A DNA stretch of 64,000 bases from assembly GCA_900142905.1 (NCBI GenBank), contig FSRV01000001.1, forward strand, positions 1 through 64,000, in the 5' to 3' direction. The notes under the pieces are model-generated. The model was not told the origin of the DNA and did not search any database. It was given only the letters and a program-made list of their open reading frames with translations. A program made the translations under genes and the position numbers. Every line of letters starts with the position of its first letter. Position 1 is the stretch's first letter. Shown one piece after another: positions 10,667-44,855 of the stretch. Source of the stretch: Burkholderia sp. GAS332 (GTDB taxonomy: Bacteria; Pseudomonadota; Gammaproteobacteria; Burkholderiales; Burkholderiaceae).

Positions 10667-13068
10667 GTTTTCAATTTGCGGCGGCTGAGAGACCTGATAT
10701 CGGGGCGGTGACTAAAGAGGAACGGGCAGCAATTCTGCATCGTCTCACCGAAGATGAGGGGATGGACTGTTGTAAGACTTTGCATGTAGCATTTTTCTTT
10801 GATGGCACTAGGAATAATGCAGCGCGTGACAGATCGTCCAATAAGCACAGTAATGTCGCGAGACTCTATGATGCTTATCCGACTGATAAATATCACTATC
10901 CTATTTACGTGGCAGGCGTTGGCACGCCTTTCGTAAAAGAAATTGGCGATTACGGTTCGGGCCTGCAAGCGGCAGCAGGTGCCGCGACCGGTTGGGCGGG
11001 CGAGGGGCGCATCAACTGGGCTCTTTTGCAATTCCAGAACTTGATTCATCAATATATTCATACCAACACCCTCAGTTTTGTGATGGGGAAAGAAGACCGG
11101 GATATCGTGAAATCCATGAGCGCCGACATGAATTTCAAAGGCATCAACCTCGGCGGCTCGCCCCCCCAACCCGGCAGTCTCGGCGACATCCAGGCACGTT
11201 CCACCGCCGGCGCGGGTGCCCTCAGGCTGATGGCCGCCGAAAAAGTCGGCGTCGAGCTGGATTGGAGCCTGGATTCCATTTGGGCGCAGTTGAAGGACCA
11301 GTTTAGTTCAGCGAACTGGATTGCCGCCATGCAAGCCTGGGACGCAAAACGTCGCCAGGTCCTGCGTGATCGCCGGGCAGAACTGAAGCAGCGTGTTGGC
11401 GACCAATTGACCAAAGGCAAGCCGAAGCTGCAGCGCATCCGCCTGTCCGTGTTCGGTTTTTCACGTGGCGCGGCCGAGGCGCGTACGTTCAGCAACTGGC
11501 TCGTCGATGCACTGGACGACGACTTCAGCCTCTGTGGCATCCCCGTGTCATTCGACTTTCTAGGCATTTTCGATACGGTGGCCTCGGTGGGCATTGCCCA
11601 GAGTACCGCCGCCACCAAGTTCGACGGCCACGGCGGCTGGGGGCGCAGGGAACTCATGGGGGTGCCTTTCTACGTCCGCCGCTGCGTGCACATGGTGGCC
11701 GCGCACGAACCGCGTGGCTCGTTTCCACTCGACCTGATTGATCGCGAAGCCGCGGGGCGCGAGGAAATCGTCTATCCGGGCGTGCATTCCGATGTCGGCG
11801 GCGGATACGGCGCTGCGGAGCAAGGAAAAGGCAAAGACGACTCCGACAAGCTGTCGCAGATCCCCCTGCTCGACATGTATCGCGAGGCGCGCATAGCCGA
11901 CGTACCGCTCGACATCAAGGGAACCGGCGTTCCGGCGCGGGTGGCCGACGCATTCAAGATTTCACCGGGTCTAAAGCAAGCGTTCACGGCCTACGTAAAG
12001 ACCAGCGCGAGCTACTGCACCAGCGCGGCGCAAGGCACGCCGGACCTGATGCGCGCCCATTACGGCCTCTATCTGCGCTGGCGCCGCATGAGGCTCGCCG
12101 ACATGAAAAAGCAGCCCAGCTTCAAAGCGGCGCAGGCCAGCTACCCGCAGGACGCCATGGATCTCGACAGCGCCAATGTCGAACTGAAAGCGGAATGGGA
12201 CGACTTGCGCGACATTGAAAAAAACGGCGAAGGTCCGTCGACCGTCGGGCGCTATGCAAGGCGCTTTGCTGGCGACTGGGTGCGCGAAAACCCGCTGAAG
12301 GCGGCGAAGTACGCACCGGCCATGTTGCCGATCGCCGCCGGTATCGGCATCACTTCGGGCACGTATGTGTTGTACGGCGGACAACAACTGGAAGCATTCC
12401 TGAACAAGCAGTTGGAAGACAAATGGCAGGAGTGGCTCGAAGTGCGGTCAGACTGGAACATGGACGCCCCGGAAGCACCGATCAGCGCGCTCTACGACAA
12501 CTACATGCACGATTCGCGCGCCTGGTTCAAACCGTTCGGCGCCGACGACGACGCATGGAACTTCGCGCAGATCAAGGAGCTGAAGGAAAAGCAGGCCGCT
12601 TATGAACGGGATCATGCCGTGTGGAAGGCCAACGCGGGCAGTGGATCACCGAGCCCCTCGCAGATTCTGCAAGCCGTAGGAGCGGGGACGATGGGCTTGG
12701 GCCCGATCGGCGTGCCCAGTCCGGCGAGCGAACCCCAATCGCCGCTAACGGCGCAGCAAACCGATCTGCTGAAGCGGTACGACGCGGCGATGCAGTCGGC
12801 ACAGAAGGCGCGGGCGGCGAAAGACCCGTCGGCGCCAAGCGACAGCGCGGTGCTCACCGATACCAAAGTCACCAACGGACTGCCTCTGCAGAACAGCGGC
12901 CGTGAGTTTTATTTCCAGTGGGGTTACTTGCGCTGGCGCACGGTCTATCTCAACGGCGAGCGCTGGATTGCACCGCACGTGCCGACGGCGCAGGAAGACA
13001 ATGAGGCGGCCCAGCGCGCGGCGCAAATGAACGTCGACATGAAGGGTATCGGGGCAATTTTCCAATGA
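10663..13068 (+). CDS. DUF2235 T6SS effector, phospholipase-type alpha/beta hydrolase (Tle1-like)
   Basis: 801 residues. The N-terminal segment LHVAFFFDGTRNN (about 44-56) and VFGFSRGAAEART (GXSXG, Ser about 267) define the DUF2235 hydrolase family, which includes Tle1 T6SS phospholipases. An FLGIFDTVASVG segment and HSDVGGGY around residues 370-380 fit the catalytic Asp/His region. There is no signal peptide, as expected for a VgrG-delivered effector. A long C-terminal region (about 500-801) contains a hydrophobic stretch near 545-565 and low-complexity P/S/G linkers. It is encoded after its presumed immunity lipoproteins and VgrG/DUF4123 carriers. Phospholipase activity is by family; the exact specificity (A1/A2) cannot be read from sequence. 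Confidence 0.9.
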   Translation: MSFQFAAAERPDIGAVTKEERAAILHRLTEDEGMDCCKTLHVAFFFDGTRNNAARDRSSNKHSNVARLYDAYPTDKYHYPIYVAGVGTPFVKEIGDYGSGLQAAAGAATGWAGEGRINWALLQFQNLIHQYIHTNTLSFVMGKEDRDIVKSMSADMNFKGINLGGSPPQPGSLGDIQARSTAGAGALRLMAAEKVGVELDWSLDSIWAQLKDQFSSANWIAAMQAWDAKRRQVLRDRRAELKQRVGDQLTKGKPKLQRIRLSVFGFSRGAAEARTFSNWLVDALDDDFSLCGIPVSFDFLGIFDTVASVGIAQSTAATKFDGHGGWGRRELMGVPFYVRRCVHMVAAHEPRGSFPLDLIDREAAGREEIVYPGVHSDVGGGYGAAEQGKGKDDSDKLSQIPLLDMYREARIADVPLDIKGTGVPARVADAFKISPGLKQAFTAYVKTSASYCTSAAQGTPDLMRAHYGLYLRWRRMRLADMKKQPSFKAAQASYPQDAMDLDSANVELKAEWDDLRDIEKNGEGPSTVGRYARRFAGDWVRENPLKAAKYAPAMLPIAAGIGITSGTYVLYGGQQLEAFLNKQLEDKWQEWLEVRSDWNMDAPEAPISALYDNYMHDSRAWFKPFGADDDAWNFAQIKELKEKQAAYERDHAVWKANAGSGSPSPSQILQAVGAGTMGLGPIGVPSPASEPQSPLTAQQTDLLKRYDAAMQSAQKARAAKDPSAPSDSAVLTDTKVTNGLPLQNSGREFYFQWGYLRWRTVYLNGERWIAPHVPTAQEDNEAAQRAAQMNVDMKGIGAIFQ

Positions 13069-24341: not shown

Positions 24342-25291
24342 TGATGGAGTACACCGGCCTCATCAATAAGTACAAAGTCAATCGCCCGCTCACGGACGAA
24401 GAGCGTCAGAACCGTCTCGACCCCGCGAGGCGGCTGGACGTTTCCCCGAATTATTTCAGTTCCACTATCAGGGTGAATAGCCAGTACCTGGAGGTTGCGG
24501 ATAAGTATTACGGCTGGAAAGGCGCATTGACATGCGTGATGGGTGTCTTGACGCTGATCTGCCTGTTCATTACGGGAATCGGCGCGGACATTTTCTTTGT
24601 CGATGGATTGCTGGGCAATCCCGGAGACCGGCTCGGAAATCTTGTCTTCGGCGCGATTCCGTTGCTGCTAGGCATCTGTCTGGTTGCGGTTCTCCTCTGG
24701 CTGATTTCCAGGGAGTGCTTTCGATACACGCACTACCCGATTCGCCTCGACCGGGAGCGCAGGGTGGTGCATGTGTTCCGGCTGGACGGGACCGTGCTGT
24801 CCGCTCCATGGGATAAGGTTTTTTTCGCTCTAGGACGGGGTAATCGACCGTTTGGCATTCAAACATGGGATGTGCGCGGACATGTACTCGGTGACGATGG
24901 CGTAACTGTGGTCGAGACATTTTGTTTTGCGCTGGCGTGGCCGGTAAAAGAAGAGCTTTACCGGTATTGGGAATATGTCCGGCGATATATGGAGGATGGT
25001 GCGGCGGCGATCATACCGTGCACGCCGGCGTATCTGCCCATTTCCGATCGGCGTGAGACATGGTGGTTTGGTTTGTTGCGACTCGCCTTGAATTTGCCCG
25101 GTCAAACTTTTGTGCAAATACTGTTGTCGCCGGCCCTTCTGCTGTTCTCCTTTGCGCGATGGTTTGCGATGCGCAGTTGCAGAATTCCGGTCTGGCCAAA
25201 AAACATCGAGGATATGTGCGTTGTCGATCCTGGCGATCCTTGCGCAAAGGACGCTCGCTCGAATCCTTCGGACCTCTGGAAAGCGATGTAA
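24341..25291 (+). CDS. DUF6708-like multi-pass membrane protein, candidate immunity protein
   Basis: 316 residues. Two clear membrane helices (about 65-90 and 100-128) and a third hydrophobic stretch (about 247-270) flank a soluble part with YTHYPIRLDRERRVVHVFR and SAPWDKVFFALGRG, a pattern I associate with DUF6708 proteins in Burkholderia T6SS loci. The start overlaps the effector stop by one base (TAATG). An inner-membrane protein coupled to a pore-forming effector fits an immunity protein that blocks the pore. The immunity role is inferred. It is the last gene of the T6SS block. Confidence 0.75.
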   Translation: MMEYTGLINKYKVNRPLTDEERQNRLDPARRLDVSPNYFSSTIRVNSQYLEVADKYYGWKGALTCVMGVLTLICLFITGIGADIFFVDGLLGNPGDRLGNLVFGAIPLLLGICLVAVLLWLISRECFRYTHYPIRLDRERRVVHVFRLDGTVLSAPWDKVFFALGRGNRPFGIQTWDVRGHVLGDDGVTVVETFCFALAWPVKEELYRYWEYVRRYMEDGAAAIIPCTPAYLPISDRRETWWFGLLRLALNLPGQTFVQILLSPALLLFSFARWFAMRSCRIPVWPKNIEDMCVVDPGDPCAKDARSNPSDLWKAM

Positions 25292-25627
25292 TACGGCTGT
25301 CATTACGCGACGGGTGGATTACCTAGGACGGCAAAAAGGCGTGCGCACCAACGGTTTAAGAAATACCGGACGGCGTACGCGCGCGTCGACAGACACGTCA
25401 CGTGACCCACAATGCCTGAGCACACTTCATAGCCGCACACCCGCGCAGCCAAATAAATAACGCACGCATCAAACCGCCCGCTCTTATATCATCACTTCTT
25501 ATTGGGATAACGACGACGCGGCCCATTCGGGGAGAGCCGCCCCTGGCGCCCTATTTCGTCCCGCAAGACCGATCCGATTAGTTATCCCCAGCCGTCTGGG
25601 GGAACCATCACACGAAGAGATTTTGAG
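25292..25627. other. Intergenic region at the T6SS / defence-island border
   Basis: 336 bases with no supported gene. A short perfect hairpin (CCCCAG / CTGGGG, 25586-25601) lies about 27 bases upstream of the MazG-like gene. It has no T-tract, so it is not a terminator. No tRNA or att repeat was seen at this border. Confidence 0.5.
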
Positions 25628-25984
25628 ATGCAAAGTGACCTCGCTAGCTTGCGCGACCTCGTTCGTCAGTTTGCGGATGAGCGCGACTGGGACAAATTTC
25701 ACACGCCGAAGAACCTGGCGACAGCATTGAGCGTCGAGGCAAGTGAGCTACTGGAGCCATTTCAGTGGCTGACCTCGGGAGACAAGAGCGAACTGGATGA
25801 AGGCAAGCAAGTCGCCGTCCGTCACGAAATGGCGGACGTATTGCTCTACCTTGTCCGCCTTGCAGACAAGCTTGATGTCGACCTCTATCAAGCCTGTTTG
25901 GAAAAAATGGATGTCAATCGGACGAAATATCCCACCGAAAAAGTCCGCGGAGATTCGCGTAAGTACTCTGATTACCAAGACTAA
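25628..25984 (+). CDS. MazG-like nucleotide pyrophosphohydrolase
   Basis: 118 residues, a single all-alpha NTP-PPase domain. The metal-binding motif is present as E37xxE40 (VEASELLEPFQW) and E67xxD70 (EMADVLLYLVRLAD), the EXXE...EXXD signature of the MazG/RS21-C6 family. These enzymes hydrolyse (d)NTPs, often dCTP analogues, to the monophosphate plus pyrophosphate and so clean or deplete nucleotide pools. It is a stand-alone gene at the left edge of the defence island, with the first island gene on the same strand 583 bases away. A housekeeping role or a phage-defence accessory role are both possible. Confidence 0.9.
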   Translation: MQSDLASLRDLVRQFADERDWDKFHTPKNLATALSVEASELLEPFQWLTSGDKSELDEGKQVAVRHEMADVLLYLVRLADKLDVDLYQACLEKMDVNRTKYPTEKVRGDSRKYSDYQD

Positions 25985-26567
25985 TAACCAAACCAAAACT
26001 AAAACGAAAATCAAAGACCAATGTGACTGTACGCCCTGCTTCGCGGACGCTGAAACCGAGGCCTACTTTAGAAATCACGTTGCGAAGCATTGCAGTAAGT
26101 AGCGTCTTGTGGGGGCAGCATACTGGATCGGTCCTTTTCCCCAGCGCCGATAGCGCATTGCGCACCCTTACCTAGTAGTTCGCAGACACCCCTTCCGACT
26201 GGCTCGCGCGACCGTCAGTCGGACCTCGACATGCTCGATCTCATCTGACGTCCGTCAGGGCGATTCTGTCTCAAATCCAGCGATGAAATATGTGCCCAGT
26301 TTTGTTGTTCATCGAGCGCTCGATGCTGTTGCACAACCTCCGACAATGGGCGAAAATACATCGGATGCCTAATAACATAGCCGACGATCACGACGCGTTA
26401 CATTTATAAAGCATCACTGAACGATTGGTTCGTTGGAGGGTAGAAGAGGACGCGAAAACACCGAGCCGAGCATCAAGGAGAACGAGGAAGGAGATGAAGC
26501 GCGGGACGCATGGGCTGCCACCCACACGACCCGCTGACCACAAACAACTCAACACAGGAGTTGAATC
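25985..26567. other. Gene-poor region between the MazG-like gene and symE
   Basis: 583 bases without a convincing gene. It begins with an A/C-rich low-complexity stretch (25985-26015). Open frames here lack ribosome-binding sites and family resemblance. In SymE loci an antisense RNA (SymR) is encoded opposite the toxin 5' end, so the last part of this region is where such an RNA or its promoter could lie. I could not identify one. Confidence 0.45.
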
Positions 26568-26831
26568 ATGGCTGACGCCAATCATAAAGCAGTTGCGCCC
26601 GTAACCCAACGCATCTTGACCATTTCGGCACAAAGACGCCCGCGGCCGATGAAAACGTTCGCACCGGCTCATGTCAAATTTTATCCAGACTTGCCGCCGG
26701 CGCCTTGGATTCGGCTTTCGGGGCGGTGGCTCGAACAGGCGGGGTTTGAGATTAGTGGGAGGGTTCGAGTGGAGGTGGAGCGAGGGAGGTTGGTGATTAC
26801 GCCGATTTTTATAGACCCCGCTCGCACCTAA
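26568..26831 (+). CDS. symE: SymE-family type I toxin
   Basis: 87 residues. The C-terminal half, PAPWIRLSGRWLEQAGFEISGRVRVEVERGRLVITP, is the AbrB/SpoVT-like SymE domain. The N-terminal part is basic (RILTISAQRRPRPMKTFAP). An AGGAG site lies 8 bases before the ATG. In E. coli SymE is an SOS-induced toxin that condenses nucleic acid or reduces translation. Its gene sits beside the hsd/mrr/mcrBC restriction cluster and is repressed by the antisense RNA SymR. The location next to a restriction-type operon here is the same association. No LexA site was recognised. Confidence 0.88.
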   Translation: MADANHKAVAPVTQRILTISAQRRPRPMKTFAPAHVKFYPDLPPAPWIRLSGRWLEQAGFEISGRVRVEVERGRLVITPIFIDPART

Positions 26832-27077
26832 CCCATCGCGCCGTTCACCGTACTGATTATTGATTCGAGTGCTCAACGGTACGGTGCGCAAGCATCGCGC
26901 GCGACGAAGTAAAACATCGCATATCAAGATCGCTGCGGAAGTTGAGCGCCAGCGGCGCGTATTTAGTGAAAAGCCGGCCCATAAACCTACGCCGCGACAC
27001 CGGCACTTGGCTATCGTTAATGGCGCGCACGAGCCCGACGCTACCTTCAGAAGTTCTTCTTCTTTCGTGATTCCCTG

Positions 27078-27115
27078 CTAGCATATGGATACACGAATGT
27101 GTATCCATATGCTAG
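27078..27115. promoter_or_regulatory. 17-bp perfect inverted repeat upstream of the RHH gene (probable operator)
   Basis: CTAGCATATGGATACAC (27078-27094), a 4-base spacer GAAT, and its exact reverse complement (27099-27115). The palindrome ends 11 bases before the RHH start codon and overlaps the beginning of the AGGAT ribosome-binding site (27114-27118). Ribbon-helix-helix proteins usually repress their own promoters by binding such dyads, so this is a strong operator candidate. In RNA it could also fold and hide part of the ribosome-binding site. It is not followed by a T-tract, so it is not a terminator. Confidence 0.75.
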
Positions 27116-27126
27116 GATCTCATCAT

Positions 27127-27366
27127 ATGTCATCGAAAGATGTAGGGATCCGTATTCGCGTGGAAAAGGAACTCCGGGAGGCGTTCCAAGGCGCCTGCAT
27201 GTCCGAAAATCGGCAGGTGTCCGACGTGCTCCGAGAGTTTATGCGCGCTTTTGCGGACCGAAACAATGGCGGTAAGCAATCAAGCTTGTTCGCCGCGCCC
27301 CCGGCGGAAGAAGAGGTTAAAGTTGCGGCAACAAAAAAGCGGTCAACAAACACCAAGACAACATGA
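27127..27366 (+). CDS. Small ribbon-helix-helix DNA-binding protein, probable regulator of the defence operon
   Basis: 79 residues from ATG 27127. An in-frame ATG at 27085 lies inside the palindrome and is unlikely. The segment VGIRIRVEKELREAFQGACMSENRQVSDVLREFMRAF has the strand-helix-turn-helix layout of RHH (MetJ/Arc/ParD-like) proteins; the tail is disordered and basic (KKRSTNTKTT). Related small RHH proteins are common on plasmids, which hints at a mobile origin. The large upstream dyad and the 63-base gap to the methyltransferase gene suggest that it autoregulates and sets expression of the operon, like the control proteins of R-M systems. The regulatory role is inferred. Confidence 0.72.
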   Translation: MSSKDVGIRIRVEKELREAFQGACMSENRQVSDVLREFMRAFADRNNGGKQSSLFAAPPAEEEVKVAATKKRSTNTKTT

Positions 27367-27429
27367 GTTTTCGCGTGAACTCTCTCGTAGCCAGCGGTGC
27401 CGTACGAAACGATTCGATCGGGAGCGTCC

Positions 27430-28593
27430 ATGCTTAGCGTAGAGCTATTCAGTGGTTGTGGCGGCCTCGCGCTCGGTTTGTCACGATCCGGTTTCCATCA
27501 TGAAATGATGGTGGAATGGAACGAAGAGGCTGTGGCGACGGTTCTCCACAACAGGCGGCGCCGCATAAAGCACGTCTGTGACTGGCCCCTCGAGCGCGCC
27601 GACGATGTTCGCAATGTCGATTGGAGCCGCTATGCCGGCCGTCTCGACTTGGTCGCGGGCGGACCGCCTTGCCAACCGTTCTCGATCGGCGGAAAACATC
27701 GAGGTCAAGATGATGATCGGGACATGTGGCCTGAAGCAATTCGGGCAGTTGCTGAAACTAAGCCGCGAGCATTTTTATTTGAAAACGTTCGCGGCCTCAC
27801 TCGCGCCGCCTTTGCAGACTATCTGCACTGGATCCTCGCACATCTTCACCACCCGGACGAGTCTCGGCAGCCTGGTGAGGATCACATTGCGCACACGAAG
27901 CGACTCAACGCGATTACTCAGCCTTCGGCGTATCAGGTTTTGGTTGTTCCGGTTAATGCTGCCGATTTCGGAACACCTCAGAAGCGCCATCGAGTCATCA
28001 TCGCTGGAGTCCGGGCCAATCTCGGTGCTACGCTGCAAGCCCCAATCCCGACACACTCGCGAGCGCGTCTTCTTTGGGATCAATGGGTAACCGGCGATTA
28101 CTGGTTGCGCCATGCAATGAGCCGTCCGGACGATTCTTTCATAACGTCTTCGGATGTAGCCTTGGTGAAAAAGTTAAGGGCGTCTGAAGTCGCTCCGGCT
28201 GAGTTTCCTTGGGTCACAGTCAGGGATGCTTTGGCTGGACTTGGCGAACCTACTGGAAAGTCGAATCACGTACTCCAGGAGGGCGCGCGCGTTTATCCTG
28301 GTCACACGGGTAGCCCGCTCGATCAGCCCGCGAAAGCGCTTAAAGCAGGCGATCATGGTGTCCCGGGGGGCGAGAATATGATGGTTCGGGACGACGGAAG
28401 CGTTCGATACTTCACTACTAGGGAAGCTGCTCGTCTCCAAGGTTTGCCAGACTCCTATCAATTTCCCAGATCATGGTCGGAGAGCATGCGACAACTGGGG
28501 AATGCCGTCCCGTCACAGCTGGCTGAAGCAATCGGTGAGTGGATGTCCGAAATCCTTGGCGATACAGACGATAGACAAAGAGTCGCAGCATAA
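27430..28593 (+). CDS. DNA (cytosine-5-)methyltransferase of a type II R-M system
   Basis: 387 residues from ATG 27430 (GGAG 6 bases upstream; the GTG at 27397 is less likely). Conserved C5-MTase motifs: FSGCGG (motif I, 7-12), GGPPCQPFS with catalytic Cys81 (motif IV), ENV 118-120 (motif VI), TPQKRHRV (motif VIII, QxRxR) and GNAVP near the C-terminus (motif X). The target recognition region lies between motif VIII and the C-terminal motifs. It transfers methyl from SAM to cytosine C5 at the site that the partner nuclease cuts. The stop overlaps the start of the Eco29kI-like gene by one base (TAATG). By analogy with Eco29kI the site may be CCGCGG; this is inferred. Confidence 0.96.
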   Translation: MLSVELFSGCGGLALGLSRSGFHHEMMVEWNEEAVATVLHNRRRRIKHVCDWPLERADDVRNVDWSRYAGRLDLVAGGPPCQPFSIGGKHRGQDDDRDMWPEAIRAVAETKPRAFLFENVRGLTRAAFADYLHWILAHLHHPDESRQPGEDHIAHTKRLNAITQPSAYQVLVVPVNAADFGTPQKRHRVIIAGVRANLGATLQAPIPTHSRARLLWDQWVTGDYWLRHAMSRPDDSFITSSDVALVKKLRASEVAPAEFPWVTVRDALAGLGEPTGKSNHVLQEGARVYPGHTGSPLDQPAKALKAGDHGVPGGENMMVRDDGSVRYFTTREAARLQGLPDSYQFPRSWSESMRQLGNAVPSQLAEAIGEWMSEILGDTDDRQRVAA

Positions 28594-29531
28594 TGGCTAC
28601 GAGATCTAAAAAGCCTGAACAAACGGTTATCGGTGAAATCCGCGAGCGCCTAGATCATCTCCGAGGCTTGCTTCCATCGTTATCCCGTCCCGCCGCAAAT
28701 AAAGCAATGGCGGAGCTAGTCGCATTGACGAGTGAAATTGAGTCCACGCGCGCCGGGCTCGATCCAATTAAAGATCCCGGATCGCCATTCGACCCGGCTA
28801 ATCCGGACACGGCCGGTCGTTTGGTTGCGTTGGCTTTGGTAGCTCAAGACCGAATCCCGATCGAGCGCATTGCAAGGACATACGGTTCGGGCGTTTACGC
28901 GATTTACTACAAGGGCAATCACCCCGCATACAAGGCGGTGTCGGGAACCGAAACACCAATCTATGTGGGCAAGGCCGACCCCAAACAAGCAGACGCCGGA
29001 AGTGCTAGAGAACAGGGGCCACAACTTTACGGCAGACTCGCTGACCACCGACGTATGATTCGAACGGTCGGTGACTACGCAATTGCCAACAGCCTCCCCG
29101 ATCCTTTGCGTGTCGACGATTTCGAATGCAGGCGGCTCGTTTGTTCCACAAATGCGCAGTTAGTCGCTGAGCGCCATCTTATCGGGGTATTCAAGCCGGT
29201 CTGGAACAACGAGGTGGGCATTTGTTGGGGCATAAGCAAACACGGTGATGCCGCAAAGACTCGCGCCAACAAACGTTCGCCTTGGGACGTGATGCATCCC
29301 GGGCGTGTATGGGCAATGGCTGAAAGCCTCGAGGACAAAATGTCGGTTAGCCACATCGTAGAGCGCGTGGCGGCCCATTTTGAAGCGAATCCCCCTTATA
29401 GACACCGCGTCAGAATCGTGCGCGATTTCCTTGCCGCATTTGCTCAGAACGCTGCTATGACTCCCGGGGAGGAAGTGCCCGACGATGACGCGGTGGTGCT
29501 GGCTGCAGAAAGTGAAACACCGGGCGAGTGA
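28593..29531 (+). CDS. Eco29kI-family GIY-YIG restriction endonuclease
   Basis: 312 residues. The GIY-YIG core is GVYAIYY (Tyr102) and PIYVGK (Tyr124). The remaining catalytic set is also visible: Arg148 and His152 (GRLADHRR), Glu193 (VAERHLI) and Asn205 (PVWNN). The spacings Arg-His 4 and Glu-Asn 12 match those of Eco29kI (R104/H108, E142/N154), so all six active-site residues appear conserved. Eco29kI cuts CCGCGG. This protein is about 100 residues longer, with an N-terminal helical region (1-95) and an acidic C-terminal tail. It overlaps the MTase stop by one base and the vsr start by 47 bases. Site specificity is an inference. Confidence 0.92.
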   Translation: MATRSKKPEQTVIGEIRERLDHLRGLLPSLSRPAANKAMAELVALTSEIESTRAGLDPIKDPGSPFDPANPDTAGRLVALALVAQDRIPIERIARTYGSGVYAIYYKGNHPAYKAVSGTETPIYVGKADPKQADAGSAREQGPQLYGRLADHRRMIRTVGDYAIANSLPDPLRVDDFECRRLVCSTNAQLVAERHLIGVFKPVWNNEVGICWGISKHGDAAKTRANKRSPWDVMHPGRVWAMAESLEDKMSVSHIVERVAAHFEANPPYRHRVRIVRDFLAAFAQNAAMTPGEEVPDDDAVVLAAESETPGE

Positions 29532-29997
29532 TTCTGCTGCCGTCGATCCGGCGAGGTCCGCCCAGATGGCGTTGGTTCGCTCGCGCGATACTAAACCGGA
29601 AATGCGAGTCCGAAAAGCAGTACATGCTGCCGGGCTGCGCTATCTTCTTCACGATCGACGCTTGCCCGGCACGCCAGATTTAGTATTCCCTTCTCGGCGA
29701 ATTGTGGTTTTCGTTCACGGCTGCTTCTGGCATAGACACTCAGAGTGTCCGGCGGCACGACTGCCCAAAACTCGTATGGAGTTTTGGGAGGCCAAACTAT
29801 CAAACAATGTGGATAGAGACAGGCACCAACGCGCTGAGCTTGAAGAGCGTGGATGGATCGTACTTACAGTGTGGGAATGCGAAACAAGAAGTCCCTTGAT
29901 TCTCGAAAACCTTATCATGACGATCAAAGCGGTCACTCCAACGCGTCGCACCGCCGCTCGCAATATAGGTGGCAACGTCACCAAGCAGTCCAATTAA
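29485..29997 (+). CDS. vsr: Very short patch repair endonuclease Vsr
   Basis: 170 residues. Vsr signatures: RSRDTKPEMRVRKAVHAAGLRY, LPGTPDLVFP (catalytic Asp), VFVHGCFWHRH (zinc/DNA-binding), EFWEAKLSNNVDRD and LTVWECE. Vsr nicks 5' of the T in T:G mismatches made when 5-methylcytosine deaminates, which fits the neighbouring C5 methyltransferase. The start at 29485 lies inside the 3' end of the endonuclease gene (GGAGG 12 bases upstream); GTG 29512 is an alternative. The C-terminal 25 residues are basic and extend past the usual family end. Confidence 0.93.
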   Translation: MTRWCWLQKVKHRASDSAAVDPARSAQMALVRSRDTKPEMRVRKAVHAAGLRYLLHDRRLPGTPDLVFPSRRIVVFVHGCFWHRHSECPAARLPKTRMEFWEAKLSNNVDRDRHQRAELEERGWIVLTVWECETRSPLILENLIMTIKAVTPTRRTAARNIGGNVTKQSN

Positions 29998-30044
29998 GAT
30001 CAACGTCGCAACAGATTGAAATAAATGAGAGGAGGGACTTCGTC

Positions 30045-32387
30045 ATGCTTCAGGAGCTAGATCTCACACCGGACCCGCGCGTGTTGCAGATGTTGGGCGA
30101 GATTAGCCTCCAACCATGGCGCTGCATCGCGGAGCTTATCGACAACGGAATCGATGGGTTTCTGTCAGCAGCGAGAGGGCAGTCTCAGATCGCCAATCCG
30201 GAAATCACCGTCACTGTGCCAACGGTCGACAACGACTCCGTGCGCGTAGTCGTTAAGGACAATGGCCCAGGCATGTCGATCGACATGCTGGAGAATGCAG
30301 TGAAAGCCGGCTGGACCGGGAAAGATTCGCTATCGAATCTTGGACTGTTCGGAATGGGTTTTAACATCGCGACCGCGCGGCTCGGAGTGGTAACGGAAGT
30401 ATGGACGACTCGGGCCGGTGACCTAGAGTCGGTAGGAGTTCGCATCGACCTCGAAGCATTGAACCGGACACGAAACTTCAAAGTTCCACGGCAGACGAGG
30501 CCAAAGCAGGATCCGAATCTACATGGCACAGAGATCGTAATTTCCAGACTGAAGCCGGATCAACGAGCTTTTTTGGCACGTTCGAATAATCTCAAAACCA
30601 TTAGGAAACAACTTGCTCGGACTTATGCGTCGCTTTTGACGAATTCCGAGGCAGGTCGGATTCGTCTGCTGGTGAATGGGACACGTATCATTCCGCGCTT
30701 GCATTGCGTCTGGGACGAAGCGCGATCGGTCGAGCTGAATGACGGCACGCCTGTCAGCGCGGTCGAACGAATTGACAGAACTCTCGCTCCTCGACGCTAT
30801 TGTGCGCACTGCATGCGCACGTTGACGATCGACGACCATACCTGCCCGACGGGCAGCGCGAGCTGCTCAATTTCGGAGACACCGAGACGGTTGCGCGGCT
30901 GGATTGGTATTCAACGCTATCTCGACAAGACTGAATTCGGCATCGACTTTATCCGTAATGGACGAAAGATTGAGATTGCAAACAAGGACTTGTTCGTTTG
31001 GACAGACGGGGAAAGCTCGGAGGTCGAGTATCCCATTGATGATCCTCGAAATCGTGGGCGATTTGTCGGCGAAATTCACATTGATCATTGCAGGGTCAGC
31101 TATACAAAGGATCGCTTCGAACGCGACGATCCGGCGTGGGATGAAATGGTCCGAATCGTTCGCGGCGATGGCCCCTTGCGCCCCATCGCCGCAAGGCAGC
31201 GTGGATATGATGGAAATCAGAGTCCACTCTATAAGTTATTCCAAGCGTTTCGCCGATCAAGCCCTCAAGGAAAGAACAGCTTGTGGTCTCGCGTCATGGT
31301 GGTACGTGACAACGATCGATCCATGCAAATGGCAGAGTCTTTTGCGAATGGCGACCCAGACTATTTGACGGACGAACGCTGGTGGCAATTAGTCGAGGAG
31401 CAAGACAAGGAGGCACTTGGGGAGCACACGTCCGGAAGTGAAAAGCCAAGCGGCGCAGAGATCCCAGACGGATTCTTTGGAGGTAGCAGTGCTGGCGAGC
31501 CAGCACGTGATACATCAGCCACAAAGGATCCGCAAGGCGAAGTTGCTCCTGAGACTTTTCAGCCGACGCTGCGACGACAGCTGCACGAACTAACGCGCAA
31601 ATATGTGCACCCCACCTATCGCGTGGAATACGACGTCCAAGCGTTTGCAGTTTCGTCGAACGACAAAGACTTGCAGCAAGGTGTTCCTTGGCTCGTCAGA
31701 CTGGACGACGTAGCAACGCGAACGTATGGTTTCTTAGTCGATGTGGACAATCCCGTCTTTCGCTCGACGACCATGACTCCGCTCGACGCGCTGCTGACCG
31801 AGCTTTCGCATCGAACTGTCGAGTTCCTGAAAGGGCAAGTGCAAGAAGTATCTATTGCCAGCATATTGACCGAGTTCCGTCTCCAGTATTGCGTGGATAC
31901 TAGGCTGGATCCGCAAGAGATTATCGCGCAAGCTTCCACCGTCATTGGAGAGATCGCCAGATCCGTCCCTGTTCGTCTCAAACCTGGGCAGGGGGCCACT
32001 TTATTTGATGAGCTCAGTCAGGATGAGCGAGAAGCTATTGCGGGAAGGATGGCTGCACGAGGCGTTTCAGATCATAAGGCGATCATTGCAGATGGACGAT
32101 TCTTGGACTACGCCGATCCACAATCGATCAGAGCATTTTTCAATCGCTATCCAAATCTGTTTCTGGACGGTAAGTATTGGGATGACTCATTCGAGTTGAT
32201 TGATTTCGGCAGTGAGCGAATTACGAATCAAGCAAGAGAACGCATTCGTTCTCGTTACGATGCGTATCTTGGCGACGCAGTTTGGTTGGCATACCAAACC
32301 CCAGCCGATCTGGAGGACGCCGATCGCGACGCCATAATTCGCGCAACTTGCTCGTTGCGATTATTGCGTCCGGACGTTGTCGAGTGA
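30045..32387 (+). CDS. MORC/MutL-like GHKL ATPase with four-cysteine cluster (defence operon)
   Basis: 780 residues from ATG 30045 (GAGGAGGG site); the open frame extends upstream but without family features. The Bergerat ATP-binding fold is clear: E30xxD33N34xxD37 (AELIDNGIDG), DNGPGM 72-77 and GLFGMGFN 100-107. A cysteine cluster CxxC...CxxxxxxC (Cys253, 256, 267, 274) interrupts the second domain and should bind zinc. The C-terminal half (about 480-780) is not recognised. GHKL ATPases of this kind occur in restriction-type operons and are related to eukaryotic MORC proteins, where ATP-driven dimerisation clamps DNA. Its role here, as a sensor or clamp that directs nucleases, is inferred. 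It ends one base before the helicase start. Confidence 0.88.
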   Translation: MLQELDLTPDPRVLQMLGEISLQPWRCIAELIDNGIDGFLSAARGQSQIANPEITVTVPTVDNDSVRVVVKDNGPGMSIDMLENAVKAGWTGKDSLSNLGLFGMGFNIATARLGVVTEVWTTRAGDLESVGVRIDLEALNRTRNFKVPRQTRPKQDPNLHGTEIVISRLKPDQRAFLARSNNLKTIRKQLARTYASLLTNSEAGRIRLLVNGTRIIPRLHCVWDEARSVELNDGTPVSAVERIDRTLAPRRYCAHCMRTLTIDDHTCPTGSASCSISETPRRLRGWIGIQRYLDKTEFGIDFIRNGRKIEIANKDLFVWTDGESSEVEYPIDDPRNRGRFVGEIHIDHCRVSYTKDRFERDDPAWDEMVRIVRGDGPLRPIAARQRGYDGNQSPLYKLFQAFRRSSPQGKNSLWSRVMVVRDNDRSMQMAESFANGDPDYLTDERWWQLVEEQDKEALGEHTSGSEKPSGAEIPDGFFGGSSAGEPARDTSATKDPQGEVAPETFQPTLRRQLHELTRKYVHPTYRVEYDVQAFAVSSNDKDLQQGVPWLVRLDDVATRTYGFLVDVDNPVFRSTTMTPLDALLTELSHRTVEFLKGQVQEVSIASILTEFRLQYCVDTRLDPQEIIAQASTVIGEIARSVPVRLKPGQGATLFDELSQDEREAIAGRMAARGVSDHKAIIADGRFLDYADPQSIRAFFNRYPNLFLDGKYWDDSFELIDFGSERITNQARERIRSRYDAYLGDAVWLAYQTPADLEDADRDAIIRATCSLRLLRPDVVE

Positions 32388-32388
32388 G

Positions 32389-34026
32389 ATGGAAAATTCC
32401 TTCCTCGATTCCCGACGATTATTAAACGGACCATGGCAGGCGTTTGAGCGAGACATTGCGCGTCTTCTCGTGTGCAATGGATTCGACGATGTTCGTGTTG
32501 TCGGAAAATCCGGGGCGCGGGGCGCGGATGTCTTAGGTGCGAAAAATGGGGAACTCTGGGTAATCCAATGTCAATTCGCGTCTGCGGGAAGGGCGGAAGG
32601 ATCCGCCGTTGATGAAGTGGCGGAAGCTGCTCGTTATTATCGAGCGGATCGCATTTTTGTCGCGTCTTCACGCCGCGCTGGTGCTGCCACTCATGCAGCG
32701 GTGAAACGATGGCACGCGCTAGGGATGACGATCAAGATTCTAGAGCCAAGCACTCTGCTTGAAATGGCTCGACGCAGCCCGGAGTATGCGAATACGCGGC
32801 GCGAACTTAGAGACTATCAGCAGGAGGCAGTCGACAGCTTCGTGGCCGCCTTGCGCGAGACTGGGCGGGCACAAGTTGTACTCGCGACAGGTCTGGGTAA
32901 AACTGTGGTCTTGGCGGAAACACTCGCTCAGCTTTATCGAGACGAAGCAGTGCCGACAGGCCGAGCGCTGGTTTTGGCTGGAACTAGAGAACTGGTAGAC
33001 CAGCTGCACAAGTCGTTTTGGGATCAGTTGCCCAAATGGGTTCCGACGCACCGCCTCGTTGGCGGAGAATTTCCGTCCTTTTGGGAGGGCGTGACATTCG
33101 CAACAGTTCAAAGCGTTGTGGCGCAACTAGAAATACTGCCAAGCTTCGGAGTAGTTCTGATCGACGAAGCGCATCACGTAGGTTCGGAGACATTTAATAA
33201 AGTCACTGATCGCTTATCGGATGCGATGGTCGGTGGCGCGACGGCGACGCCTTGGCGCGGCGACGGCTACGATATTGACCGCCAGCTAGGACCACCCGTC
33301 ATGCGGGTCGGCATTGCGGAGGGCTTGCGCCGTAAATTTTTGTGCGCGGCCGACTATCGCATGCTGGCAGATAACGTAGACTGGAAATTCGTACGCTCGA
33401 GCTCTCGTCATAACTACTCGATTTCTCAGCTAAATCGGCGTCTCCTATTACCCACACGCGATGAGGAGGCTGCAAAGACAATTCGACAGGTTTTCGACAG
33501 CGAGAATCGTCGCTCAATAATTGTTTTTTGCTCCACAGTGCTGCATGCAAAGAGCTTTGCAGCAATGTTGCGACTTTTCGGCTTACGGACGGAGCCGCTT
33601 ACCGGCGAAATGTCAGCCAGAGAGCGAGACGTAACACTATCGGCGTTTCGAAAGGGCGCTCTAGACGCCATCACTACCCGCGATTTATTTAATGAAGGTG
33701 TCGACGTTCCAGACGTAGACATGCTCGTGTTCATGCGCGTCACGCACAGCCGCAGAATCTTTGTGCAACAACTAGGACGAGGCCTACGCGTAAGCCCCCG
33801 AAAGGAGAAAGTTGTGGTACTCGACTTTGTAAGTGACCTTCGGAGGATTTCTGAGGTGATTGAACTGGAAAAGGCCGTACAAGGAGAGGTAGAACGGTTG
33901 CGACTTCCGGGAATGATACAGTTCCGGAACGGGGAAGCTGCTGATTTTATGCTGAAATGGATGACAGAGCAGGCAGATCTATTCATGCGCGAGGGCGATG
34001 CGCGGCTTGAGTTACCCAATTTTTGA
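32389..34026 (+). CDS. Mrr-like nuclease domain fused to SF2 (DEAH) helicase
   Basis: 545 residues from ATG 32389; a TTG at 32377 overlapping the previous stop is an alternative. Residues 1-130 look like an Mrr/REase-fold domain (FERDIARLL, GARGADVLG with Asp47, LWVIQCQFA). In the usual (D)...(E/Q)xK motif the Lys would be residue 62 but is Gln (Q60-C-Q62), so cleavage activity is doubtful. Residues 135-490 are an SF2 helicase: RDYQQEAV, Walker A ATGLGKT (Lys171), DEAH 259-262, GATATP, and QQLGRGLR as motif VI. It probably translocates on DNA as the motor of the system. It lies between the GHKL ATPase gene and two small genes on a continuous transcript. Confidence 0.9.
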   Translation: MENSFLDSRRLLNGPWQAFERDIARLLVCNGFDDVRVVGKSGARGADVLGAKNGELWVIQCQFASAGRAEGSAVDEVAEAARYYRADRIFVASSRRAGAATHAAVKRWHALGMTIKILEPSTLLEMARRSPEYANTRRELRDYQQEAVDSFVAALRETGRAQVVLATGLGKTVVLAETLAQLYRDEAVPTGRALVLAGTRELVDQLHKSFWDQLPKWVPTHRLVGGEFPSFWEGVTFATVQSVVAQLEILPSFGVVLIDEAHHVGSETFNKVTDRLSDAMVGGATATPWRGDGYDIDRQLGPPVMRVGIAEGLRRKFLCAADYRMLADNVDWKFVRSSSRHNYSISQLNRRLLLPTRDEEAAKTIRQVFDSENRRSIIVFCSTVLHAKSFAAMLRLFGLRTEPLTGEMSARERDVTLSAFRKGALDAITTRDLFNEGVDVPDVDMLVFMRVTHSRRIFVQQLGRGLRVSPRKEKVVVLDFVSDLRRISEVIELEKAVQGEVERLRLPGMIQFRNGEAADFMLKWMTEQADLFMREGDARLELPNF

Positions 34027-34062
34027 TTATTTCGCATTGCCGGCGGAAAGATGCGTTGAACT

Positions 34063-34590
34063 ATGATTCCAGAAAAAATACGCGAGGACATACGCAGCCA
34101 GCTTTGGGCGGAAGCTGACGATATTGGCTGGTCGTCCCTAAGTGACATAGATCGGGCGAAGTGCTACGAGAATTGGACACGCTCGTCCGCTATAGGAGTT
34201 CGCCTAGGCCACTTTATGGACCCTCGAAGAGTTCGGGTCTACATTAAAGATTCACTCTTGAAGCCTTACGAACGCTTACGGCTTTCACAAACGGAGGACT
34301 CCGTTTGGCAAGCGTTGGCATTGCCCACACCAGGACTTAATGCCGAAAGCTTCATAAAACCGCATGGTAGAAGGACGACTGATGGACGCGTTGTCTGTTG
34401 GGGGAAAAGTCGCGACTGGAAATTCGTCCTGTTTGCGGTTTTCGAACGGGCGTGGAGGCACCCTGCGTCGGTGCCCTTCGGCGTAGTGCTGCTTGAGTCT
34501 GGCAAAACCACCAACGCGCGGGAGCGGCAACTGGTACGGGATGCCGCGCAGAAGCTAGGTATTGTGCGAATTGAATGGTTGGAGGAATAG
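34063..34590 (+). CDS. Unrecognised 175-residue protein of the defence operon
   Basis: No family recognised. The protein is soluble, with no signal peptide or membrane helix. The N-terminal half is helical and charged; the C-terminal half has alternating hydrophobic strands (DWKFVLFAVFERAW, FGVVLLESG, GIVRIEWLEE) typical of an alpha/beta domain. Its gene starts 36 bases after the helicase stop and ends one base before the PIN-like gene, so it is transcribed with them. It may be a specificity, adaptor or regulatory subunit of the helicase or PIN protein; this is a guess from position. Confidence 0.7.
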   Translation: MIPEKIREDIRSQLWAEADDIGWSSLSDIDRAKCYENWTRSSAIGVRLGHFMDPRRVRVYIKDSLLKPYERLRLSQTEDSVWQALALPTPGLNAESFIKPHGRRTTDGRVVCWGKSRDWKFVLFAVFERAWRHPASVPFGVVLLESGKTTNARERQLVRDAAQKLGIVRIEWLEE

Positions 34591-34591
34591 C

Positions 34592-35713
34592 ATGAGGCAA
34601 GACTTTCCGGGCTGGTTCCAGAAAACACAGGAAGAGCTCGCCGCAATTTGGGATCACGCTATCTTCGTGCCAGACGCGAATATCCTCCTGCATTGCGTGA
34701 GACACCCGACCAACGTGCGGGAAGAGTTGTTACGTGTCTTTGAGGTGTTGAAGGATTCGCTATGGATACCTTATCAAGTCGGATTGGAATTCAATCGCAA
34801 CAGACTGGATGTGGAATTCGGTGCGCAAGACGCATACGATCGCCTAACAAAAGAATATGAAGGCGCGCTAGGTCAAGCAAAGGAGCGATTACGCCAGCTT
34901 CGGGCACACCCAATGATTAATGTTGAACATGAGATCGCCGCATTGGACGGTTTTCTTGACGACTTTAAGACGCGCATTGCGGAAGCCCGTTTGGCGCATC
35001 CAGCAGGCGAGATTGCGTTGGCCGTCAATCGCCTAACTGATTTATTTAAGGATCGCGTTGGCCCGAAGTGGAAGCACGAGCAATTAATCGCGATTAAAAA
35101 GGAGGGAGAGGACCGATACGCAAAGCAAATTCCTCCTGGCTACAAAGATGCCAAAAAGGATGCCGGTGAGTTCAATAGGTTTGGCGATCTGATCATATGG
35201 AAAGATATGCTTGAGAAAGCAAAATCAGAAAATCGCCCCATCATTTTTATTTCCGATGATGCAAAGGAGGACTGGTGGTGGATTCACCGCGGGCGAAAAC
35301 TCGGAGCACGCCCCGAGCTCATTGAGGAGTTCAAGCTCGCTTCCGACCAGGATTTTCATGTCTATGAGTTTGGCCAGTTTCTTCGGATCGCAGCCGAGCG
35401 GCATCCCGAAATTCAGGCGGGCGTGGAGCAGATCAGCAAGAGCTTGTCTGATGATGAGCAGGCACGCAAACGAGCGCGAGGAGCTGCAGAAATTCAGTCC
35501 CTCAAAGAACTAATCACGCGCCTAGAGGATGAGCGAGATTCGATTGTATCTGCGCTCTCCGGTGCTCCAACCATCGAGCCTATCAAGACTCTGGTCAAGG
35601 ACAAAACTGCACTAAGAGAGAGGCTCACAATGCTTGGCGCAGAGCTCGATGACGCTGTTGCCGCACTAACCGTTGAGACTGACGTAACGGATAGCGGCGA
35701 TCTTCCATCTTAG
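34592..35713 (+). CDS. PIN-like nuclease (PIN_8/DUF4935 type) with C-terminal coiled coil
   Basis: 373 residues from ATG 34592 (GGAGGAATAG upstream); GTG at 34562 is unlikely. The N-terminal AIFVPDANILLH (Asp28), GLEFNRNR (Glu66), a GEFNRFGDLIIWKDM segment and FISDDAKEDWW give the spaced acidic residues of a PIN-like metal site. An internal helical insertion (about 80-185) and a C-terminal coiled coil (about 285-350) surround it. PIN domains cleave RNA, or DNA in some defence systems. As the last gene of the operon it is a candidate effector nuclease. Nuclease activity is by family; the substrate is unknown. Confidence 0.82.
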   Translation: MRQDFPGWFQKTQEELAAIWDHAIFVPDANILLHCVRHPTNVREELLRVFEVLKDSLWIPYQVGLEFNRNRLDVEFGAQDAYDRLTKEYEGALGQAKERLRQLRAHPMINVEHEIAALDGFLDDFKTRIAEARLAHPAGEIALAVNRLTDLFKDRVGPKWKHEQLIAIKKEGEDRYAKQIPPGYKDAKKDAGEFNRFGDLIIWKDMLEKAKSENRPIIFISDDAKEDWWWIHRGRKLGARPELIEEFKLASDQDFHVYEFGQFLRIAAERHPEIQAGVEQISKSLSDDEQARKRARGAAEIQSLKELITRLEDERDSIVSALSGAPTIEPIKTLVKDKTALRERLTMLGAELDDAVAALTVETDVTDSGDLPS

Positions 35714-36009
35714 TGGACTTGACTAGCGCAACAAAAGCCCGCCAAGATATTAAGCGTTGTGCAGGCTGATCATCTCAACCGTCTGCAGGAGATGCGCTCG
35801 ACCATTTGCCTAACGTCAGCAAAATGGTCCTTCGAATCGAAAGAAAACGGTCGACAATTGCTTTGCCGGTAAGCGCTACCGGGAAAATTCTGGGTCTAAC
35901 CCGAGCGCCGCTGTCGCGAACCGGAAGCGCGAAGATATAGTGTCTTGCCTGCATGATTCCATTGGCCGCCTCGCGCACGTCGTCGCTGGATGAGTGCCCT
36001 TTAAGCATG
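35714..36009. other. Intergenic region between the defence operon and gyrB
   Basis: 296 bases on the far side of the gyrB terminator. A 77-codon open frame on the - strand (35775-36008) starts against the terminator stem without a ribosome-binding site and resembles nothing I know, so it is not called. No att-like repeat or tRNA was recognised at this island border. Confidence 0.5.
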
Positions 36010-36040
36010 AAAAAAGCCAGCCCTTATGGGCTGGCTTTTT
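36010..36040. terminator. Bidirectional rho-independent terminator
   Basis: A perfect stem AGCCAGCCC / GGGCTGGCT with a TTAT loop (36015-36036), flanked by A6 on the left and T5 on the right. It can end transcription from gyrB (- strand) and from the defence operon (+ strand). Confidence 0.92.
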
Positions 36041-36116
36041 CGATCCATCTTGGCGACAGAAGGACATTTGTAGTGGCCGAGACCTTCTTCCCACAGTCGC
36101 AAAAAGGCACGCTACC

Positions 36117-38639
<2,523 letters not shown>

Positions 38640-44818: not shown

Positions 44819-44855
44819 AAAAAAAGCCGCCCGGTTTGCGCCGGGCGGCTTTTTT
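44819..44855. terminator. Rho-independent terminator after yidC (bidirectional)
   Basis: A perfect 10-bp stem AGCCGCCCGG / CCGGGCGGCT (44825-44850) with A7 before and T6 after. It separates yidC from the convergent regulator gene and can stop both. Confidence 0.93.

Follow-up and report, generated by a model that had tools for sequence, protein, structure and literature searches.

A candidate two-part restriction operon with a MORC-type ATPase in Burkholderia sp. GAS332

Burkholderia sp. GAS332 carries eight closely packed genes on the plus strand, next to the gyrase gene gyrB, at positions 27127-35713 of the 64,000-nucleotide stretch of contig FSRV01000001.1 analyzed here (the window). The front of this operon consists of a ribbon-helix-helix (RHH) gene, a C5-methyltransferase (C5-MTase) and a GIY-YIG restriction endonuclease (REase) of the Eco29kI type; the rear consists of a MORC-type GHKL ATPase, an SF2 helicase with an N-terminal Mrr domain (HelMrr), a protein of 175 residues (U175) and a PIN_8 nuclease-like protein, and a gene for a Vsr mismatch endonuclease lies between the two parts. 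We give an even chance to the reading that this is a two-part restriction operon, in which an Eco29kI-type methylate-and-cut pair stands with an ATP-driven engine of MORC, HelMrr and U175 that would hit unmarked DNA. What we observed is the gene content, a conserved trio (MORC, HelMrr and U175), one class of MTase in 23 loci, and a REase and a PIN_8 protein that are optional.

Conserved core and optional genes

The alignment of U175 (34 sequences) led to 22 loci in named genomes, and a tblastn search with U175 to three plasmid records; searches anchored on MORC yielded seven plasmids, four of them with at least 80% of MORC covered, as well as G898 and G1202. Profiles of seven proteins were searched over 31 locus sequences, the window included. 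After leaving out duplicates (L003, L006, L061), a broken near-duplicate (L007), loci at contig edges (L004, L022), one locus split by an insertion sequence (L025) and a fragment (L064), 23 loci were usable, and the counts given below refer to these.

The C5-MTase, MORC, HelMrr and U175 were each found in 23/23 loci, in several gene orders, and Vsr in all but L026 and L067 (21/23). The Eco29kI-type REase occurs in 16 of the 23 and PIN_8 in 17. The core therefore is the trio with the C5-MTase, and the REase and PIN_8 are add-ons. The latter two go together, PIN_8 being present in 16/16 REase-bearing loci versus 1/7 REase-free ones (Fisher p 7e-5, uncorrected for relatedness). The initial annotation had viewed the rear genes as an extra on a complete restriction-modification (R-M) set, which does not agree with the optional REase (16/23) and PIN_8 (17/23); the co-occurrence check that it proposed was run, and MORC, HelMrr and U175 indeed travel with the C5-MTase in all 23 distinct usable loci.

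Plasmid and genome records outside this set gave a similar picture. In the four plasmids with at least 80% MORC coverage, HelMrr and U175 come next in line (with an insertion sequence between in one), and the U175 proteins of the Rhodococcus and Deinococcus plasmids were confirmed by profile comparison. HelMrr and U175 likewise follow MORC in G898, and in L025 the MTase and REase lie some kb upstream, with insertion sequences intervening. Once G1202 is added, the trio is accompanied by a C5-MTase in 23/24 loci. As sampled, the front also lives alone, and every intact rear came with a C5-MTase; the exception, G1202, has a broken U175, whose frame breaks off, and a contig end. Upstream of MORC in G898 lies a phage-type DNA methyltransferase (phrog_799, NPPF motif; L067 5672-6310), and a 69%-identical protein is found upstream of MORC in G1202 (L079).

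L002, L021, L023, L026, L060, L063 and L067 showed no Eco29kI-type REase within the stretches examined. Ten selected flanking genes in L060, L067, L023, L063 and L026 showed no known restriction enzyme type in Pfam, bar a weak HSDR_N_2 match in L060. Near L002 and L021, the genes selected for inspection encode, among others, a SAVED protein that weakly matches HNH and a GmrSD_N protein; these are signs of defence islands, and another nuclease may lie near these two loci. Directly downstream of the L060 operon (10894-12945) is a second, different GHKL protein, which bears the weak HSDR_N_2 match at its C-terminus.

Two blocks and a shared recognition segment

Protein distances were compared after dropping rows L003, L006, L007, L022 and L025, and also L004 and, in one run, L026. 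Correlations were high for MTase and REase (r = 0.98) and within MORC, HelMrr and U175 (0.90-0.98), with PIN_8 at 0.80-0.90 against this trio; across the blocks we obtained 0.38 for REase-MORC and 0.39-0.64 for MTase-MORC. The loci L014 (Xanthobacter) and L016 (Herbaspirillum) show the same division, MORC, HelMrr and U175 being 93, 96 and 94% identical, the MTase 48% and the REase 38%. Their DNA similarity is confined to one 6-kb piece from Vsr to PIN_8 and only ~230 bases of the front.

The alignment also singled out a segment of the window MTase, residues 278-328 (28261-28413), that lies between motifs VIII and IX, which in M.HhaI enclose what we take to be the DNA-reading region. This segment, with bounds chosen after viewing the alignment, is the best-conserved part of the MTase, with a mean identity of 0.73 between REase-bearing and REase-free loci versus 0.38-0.49 elsewhere; against three unrelated-class C5-MTases (one is a fragment), its identity is 0.24. 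When the operon enzymes are compared to M.Eco29kI of pECO29, the segment reaches 0.68 versus 0.37-0.45 for other segments, and the window MTase alone gives 0.67 versus 0.34-0.49. Four other front-only cassettes that we compared share it too. Since the MTases have this segment in common with M.Eco29kI, they likely mark one and the same site, to judge from their sequences; this would be CCGCGG, which we take to be the Eco29kI site, if that site holds for them. A related MTase was found in 38 plasmid records, many of them E. coli copies, and four of these have the rear.

Proteins of the rear

Families were assigned from Pfam, NCBIfam and PADLOC scans and from PDB comparisons. The MORC-type ATPase (30045-32387, 780 residues) matches PF13589 (4e-10) in Pfam. 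Its GHKL motifs and the Cys4 cluster seen in the initial annotation (C253, C256, C267 and C274) are invariant in 27 aligned sequences, the window included. The three PDB sequences matched by the MORC profile are MORC3 and MORC4, with weak scores (7e-4 to 7e-3), and the structure model, itself weak (predicted local distance difference test, pLDDT, of 58), resembles GHKL folds including TRAP1 and SMCHD1. The MORC-specific S5 motif GhXhhpXXRhl may correspond to GIDFIRNGRKI (residues 299-309), which fits 10 of 11 positions, with Lys where a hydrophobic residue is expected; the S5 part of the model has low confidence. At E 0.0095, one relative of this protein (L024) just reaches the MzaB model.

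HelMrr (32389-34026, 545 residues, with an alternative TTG start at 32377) carries PF04471 (Mrr_cat, 3e-10), PF04851 and PF00271. Its best NCBIfam match is the RadD model, at 132.6 bits and under the cut-off. In the PDB it best matches 7clg (6e-27), presumably SauUSI, and RadD (3e-26), with coverage of the helicase only (residues 148-490 of the 549-residue frame), and it also matches XPB/RAD25. Among the matches listed (25 of 29), its best PADLOC match is a type IV model. The Pfam scan gave nuclease-type and helicase/ATPase domains only, with no SRA or other methyl-binding domain.

Five helicase-motif residues of HelMrr are intact in 120/120 sequences. The Mrr-like domain described in the initial annotation is present; in this copy, it has lost the lysine of the QCK motif, which we take to be catalytic. 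Residue 62 (32572-32574) is Gln in the window copy only, and Lys in 119/119 nearest homologues and in 25/25 locus sequences. At residue 43 (32515-32517), the window copy has Ala, 116 of the 119 nearest homologues have Asp, and the remaining 3, all among the four nearest relatives of the window protein, have Asn. In addition, the 4-base overlap of HelMrr with the U175 start, usual in most relatives, is absent. With the nuclease lysine lost and an early end to the protein, cutting by this HelMrr appears unlikely and would fall to the REase, which looks intact by alignment. The change may reflect either a division of labour or decay.

U175 (34063-34590) gave no match at E 0.01 in Pfam, NCBIfam, PADLOC or PHROGs, and no publication that mentions U175 or this combination of genes turned up in a literature search restricted by licence. 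The PIN_8 protein (34592-35713) matches PF18476 (1.4e-54), and its acidic positions, which we take to be catalytic, are kept in the 20 other copies aligned, bar that of L008, whose frame starts late; the split L020 copy was left out. On the Psychrobacter plasmid pA48P2 (L068, 4204 bases), PIN_8 is the sole cargo beside replication, mobilisation and one small hypothetical gene, which suggests that it can act alone.

Proposed mechanism and alternative readings

In the two-part reading, the C5-MTase would protect self DNA by marking predicted CCGCGG-like sites, and the MORC ATPase would clamp or loop unmodified DNA. U175 may bind DNA as an adaptor, with a nuclease-like fold that has no recognisable active site, while the helicase of HelMrr would draw DNA through and the Mrr domain would cut it. 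Where no REase was seen (7/23 loci), the trio would probably be enough for restriction; where they are present, the GIY-YIG enzyme could add direct cuts at the unmarked site and PIN_8 a further nuclease, and Vsr would mend T:G mismatches caused by methylation. In the window copy, with an Mrr site that lacks its lysine, the trio might act as motor and sensor and leave the cutting to the Eco29kI-type enzyme and perhaps PIN_8. A bolder version, which we put forward only tentatively, is that MORC, HelMrr and U175 are an engine of their own kind that recognises self by methylation at one fixed site, the Eco29kI site, needs no classical REase and has been grafted repeatedly onto swapped same-site cassettes; U175 would then read the site or its methylation, as a nuclease fold turned sensor.

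Several observations weigh against the two-part reading. Cross-block correlations reach 0.70 (MTase-HelMrr), such that the blocks are not fully separate, and all five front-only MTases compared share segment 278-328, so that its constancy may stem from common MTase ancestry rather than from a demand of the rear. Three weaker MORC matches on plasmids (a Streptomyces fragment beside transposases, Haladaptatus and Rathayibacter) come without the trio, and G1202 has MORC and HelMrr with no C5-MTase found, a weak negative. A nuclease that escaped recognition could lie close to the REase-free loci, L023 having just 2.5 kb of sequence on one of its sides. By genus name, 11 of the 14 loci that have the complete set of seven proteins belong to the alphaproteobacteria, and U175 gave no Foldseek match at E < 0.001. 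Finally, the window HelMrr stops ~12 residues short of its relatives and, with its lysine also lost, the copy may be decaying.

The likeliest of the alternatives, itself improbable, is that an ordinary Eco29kI-type R-M system lies beside an independent MORC defence module with which it does not cooperate. Indeed, the front occurs alone on plasmids of Xanthomonas, E. coli, Methylocaldum, Rhizobium and others, and between L014 and L016 it has been replaced with the rear nearly unchanged. However, a C5-MTase of a single recognition class accompanies the rear in all 23 usable loci, in several orders, and chance neighbours would show many classes. Next in rank, with a small probability, comes a window copy that is a decaying and largely inactive remnant of a system that works elsewhere. 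Two Mrr residues are changed, including the lysine that the 119 nearest homologues all retain, the early end of HelMrr removes the usual overlap with the U175 start, and Asn for Asp is already seen in three of four nearest relatives; yet all eight frames are open and the examined motif residues of the MTase, GIY-YIG, Vsr, GHKL, helicase and PIN proteins are kept.

We consider even less likely a repair pathway that guards the methylated genome and does not restrict phages, in which Vsr nicks T:G at deaminated 5-methylcytosine and the MutL-like MORC and RadD-like helicase process the nick. Vsr is present in 21/23 loci, the helicase matches RadD best among NCBIfam models, albeit under the cut-off, and MutL interacts with Vsr in E. 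coli (cited in PMC2292703, in the accessible part of the text). Still, L026 and L067 have the core but no Vsr, and defence is the better fit for the Mrr lysine kept in 119 nearest homologues, the patchy spread and the carriage on plasmids. The least probable alternative is a type IV-like rear that attacks DNA with foreign modification, the MTase being merely a marker neighbour. It would be in line with the helicase's best matches in the PDB (7clg, presumably SauUSI) and, among the matches listed, in PADLOC (the type IV model), and with Mrr domains being known mainly from type IV enzymes, but these matches cover only helicase residues 148-490 of the 549-residue frame, Pfam shows no SRA or other methyl-binding domain, and such a rear, constantly paired with an enzyme that methylates self DNA, would risk autoimmunity. 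The initial annotation had also suggested a backup against phages that escape by methylation, for which this analysis gave no support.

Relation to known systems

With the type II R-M system Eco29kI (pECO29, L073) the operon shares a GIY-YIG REase and a C5-MTase of the same recognition class, but pECO29 has these two annotated genes only, with no Vsr, MORC, helicase, U175 or PIN_8. SauUSI (presumably 7clg) and RadD share the SF2 helicase core; HelMrr differs in its N-terminal Mrr domain and in its place beside a methyltransferase, and the likeness covers the helicase alone. The DISARM and Druantia hallmarks DrmB (DUF1998) and DruE were not found; among the PADLOC matches listed, DruM and DrmMII match the MTase only, and the PADLOC check proposed in the initial annotation gave no match at E 0.01 for MORC, U175 or PIN_8.

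Also comparable is the Mza system, reportedly that of Gao et al. 2020. Together with an Mza-like locus on a Rathayibacter plasmid (L066), it shows the same logic, with a C5-MTase beside a GHKL ATPase, an ATPase/helicase and a PD-(D/E)XK protein (PMC9523054, accessible part). The closest likeness is to the first type of MORC/paraMORC R-M neighbourhoods outlined by Iyer, Abhiman and Aravind in 2008 (PMC2292703), which, in the accessible part of that paper, comprises a MORC-type GHKL ATPase and an SFII Rad25-like helicase fused N- or C-terminally to an RE-fold nuclease, with cytosine methylases and Vsr. The window operon has such a Rad25-like helicase fused to an RE-fold nuclease, a cytosine methylase and Vsr nearby, and the GHKL motifs in its MORC. 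By word searches, the text of that paper has no mention of PIN, GIY, Eco29kI or Mrr, and its accessible part describes neither a counterpart of U175 with this helicase type nor a single recognition class or an optional REase. Thus, this type of neighbourhood is not without precedent, MORC-helicase-methylase-Vsr neighbourhoods having been known in outline since 2008; U175, PIN_8 and the one-site modular layout are absent from the portions of the literature covered.

The role of bacterial MORC proteins in restriction has been a prediction since that outline (PMC2292703, accessible part). The compact four-gene set of MTase, MORC, HelMrr and U175, thinly spread over distant bacteria and unrecognised as a system by PADLOC models, makes this prediction testable. 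In plants and animals, MORC ATPases silence transposons and compact chromatin. If the engine does restrict on one site without a classical REase, this would point to an origin of MORC proteins as defence partners of DNA methylation, and type II restriction would gain an ATP-driven layer.

Front genes and operon layout

The C5-MTase (27430-28593) matches PF00145 (6e-51), with the PPCQ, ENV, QxRxR and GNAVP motifs all found. The REase (28593-29531) matches PF09517 (3e-30) and the Eco29kI structures 3mx4, 3mx1 and 3nic (3e-15 to 5e-15). We take the catalytic residues of Eco29kI to be Y, Y, R, H, E and N; in the alignment to 3mx4, the GVY, YVGK, RxxxH and WN motifs are retained, the Glu position being inferred by counting back from WN. 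GIY-YIG enzymes across the loci belong to differing subfamilies and are placed either before MORC or after PIN_8. Vsr (29512-29997, start uncertain) scores 139.6 bits against TIGR00632 (cut-off 97.85) and matches PF03852 (3e-27) and E. coli Vsr (1cw0, 9e-30).

The RHH protein (27127-27366) was assigned by eye; it has no Pfam family at E 0.01 and matches phrog_28287, of unknown function (5e-6). RHH-like small genes, also recognized by eye, head the operon in L019, L020, L021, L023 and L060, and an annotated RHH gene heads the front-only cassette on a Xanthomonas plasmid, although blastp gave no alignment between that protein and the window RHH. A perfect inverted repeat with 17-bp arms and a 4-base spacer (27078-27115) ends 11 bases 5' of the RHH ATG, and is the longest perfect inverted repeat in the 64-kb window (spacer 0-8). 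The RHH protein is likely an autoregulator, with this repeat as its likely operator. The second-longest such repeat of the window lies at 44820-44855, with 15-bp arms.

Each frame of the operon is open with a single stop. The genes had been described as packed with 1-base overlaps or short gaps; packing is indeed tight, with a 1-base overlap between MTase and REase and a spacing of 1 for both MORC/HelMrr and U175/PIN_8, but it is mixed, since REase and Vsr overlap by 20 bases if Vsr starts at 29512 and gaps of 63 (RHH-MTase), 47 (Vsr-MORC) and 36 bases (HelMrr-U175) occur.

Distribution and genomic context

The operon is rare, occurring in 3/398 genomes of the family, its own included. By MORC, it was found in 1/369 genomes of the class (its own), in 2/398 of the phylum (its own and G898) and in 2/385 of the class of G898; the system was not found in phage records. 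The nearest relative found for the window front is the RHH-MTase-REase cassette on the Xanthomonas plasmid, with an MTase and a REase that are 75-77% identical (77% for the REase). The operon has a guanine plus cytosine (G+C) fraction of 0.54, compared to 0.62 in the window outside 25001-36100. A stretch of 13.9 kb is 99.96% identical between L005 and L006, which come from two genera, so that copies move, unless the assemblies were mixed. The horizontal gain suggested by the initial annotation is consistent with the lower G+C, the plasmid copies and the near-identical copies in different genera. L002 and L003, from 'Deltaproteobacteria' and 'Spirochaetaceae' metagenome-assembled genomes, have 20.5 kb that are identical, likely through a binning error.

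Among 14 congeners fetched, none has the operon after gyrB by blastn (12 stretches of at least 7 kb, two of less than 1.4 kb). Only one has a further match to the window, a SymE gene downstream of gyrB (L047, G040) with 76.5% DNA identity to 26486-26802. The contents of the stretch after gyrB (window 35713-36117; L046-L059) vary, 13/14 congeners having no blastn match beyond gyrB; by eye, they include reverse transcriptase-like, HNH/SymE, type VI secretion system-like and HsdR/HsdM-like genes, and the stretch is likely an integration hotspot. In the window itself, a SymE-type toxin gene (26568-26831; PF08845, 8e-15) lies directly upstream of the operon, and a gene for a MazG-like pyrophosphohydrolase is located at 25628-25984 (PF12643, 5e-13).

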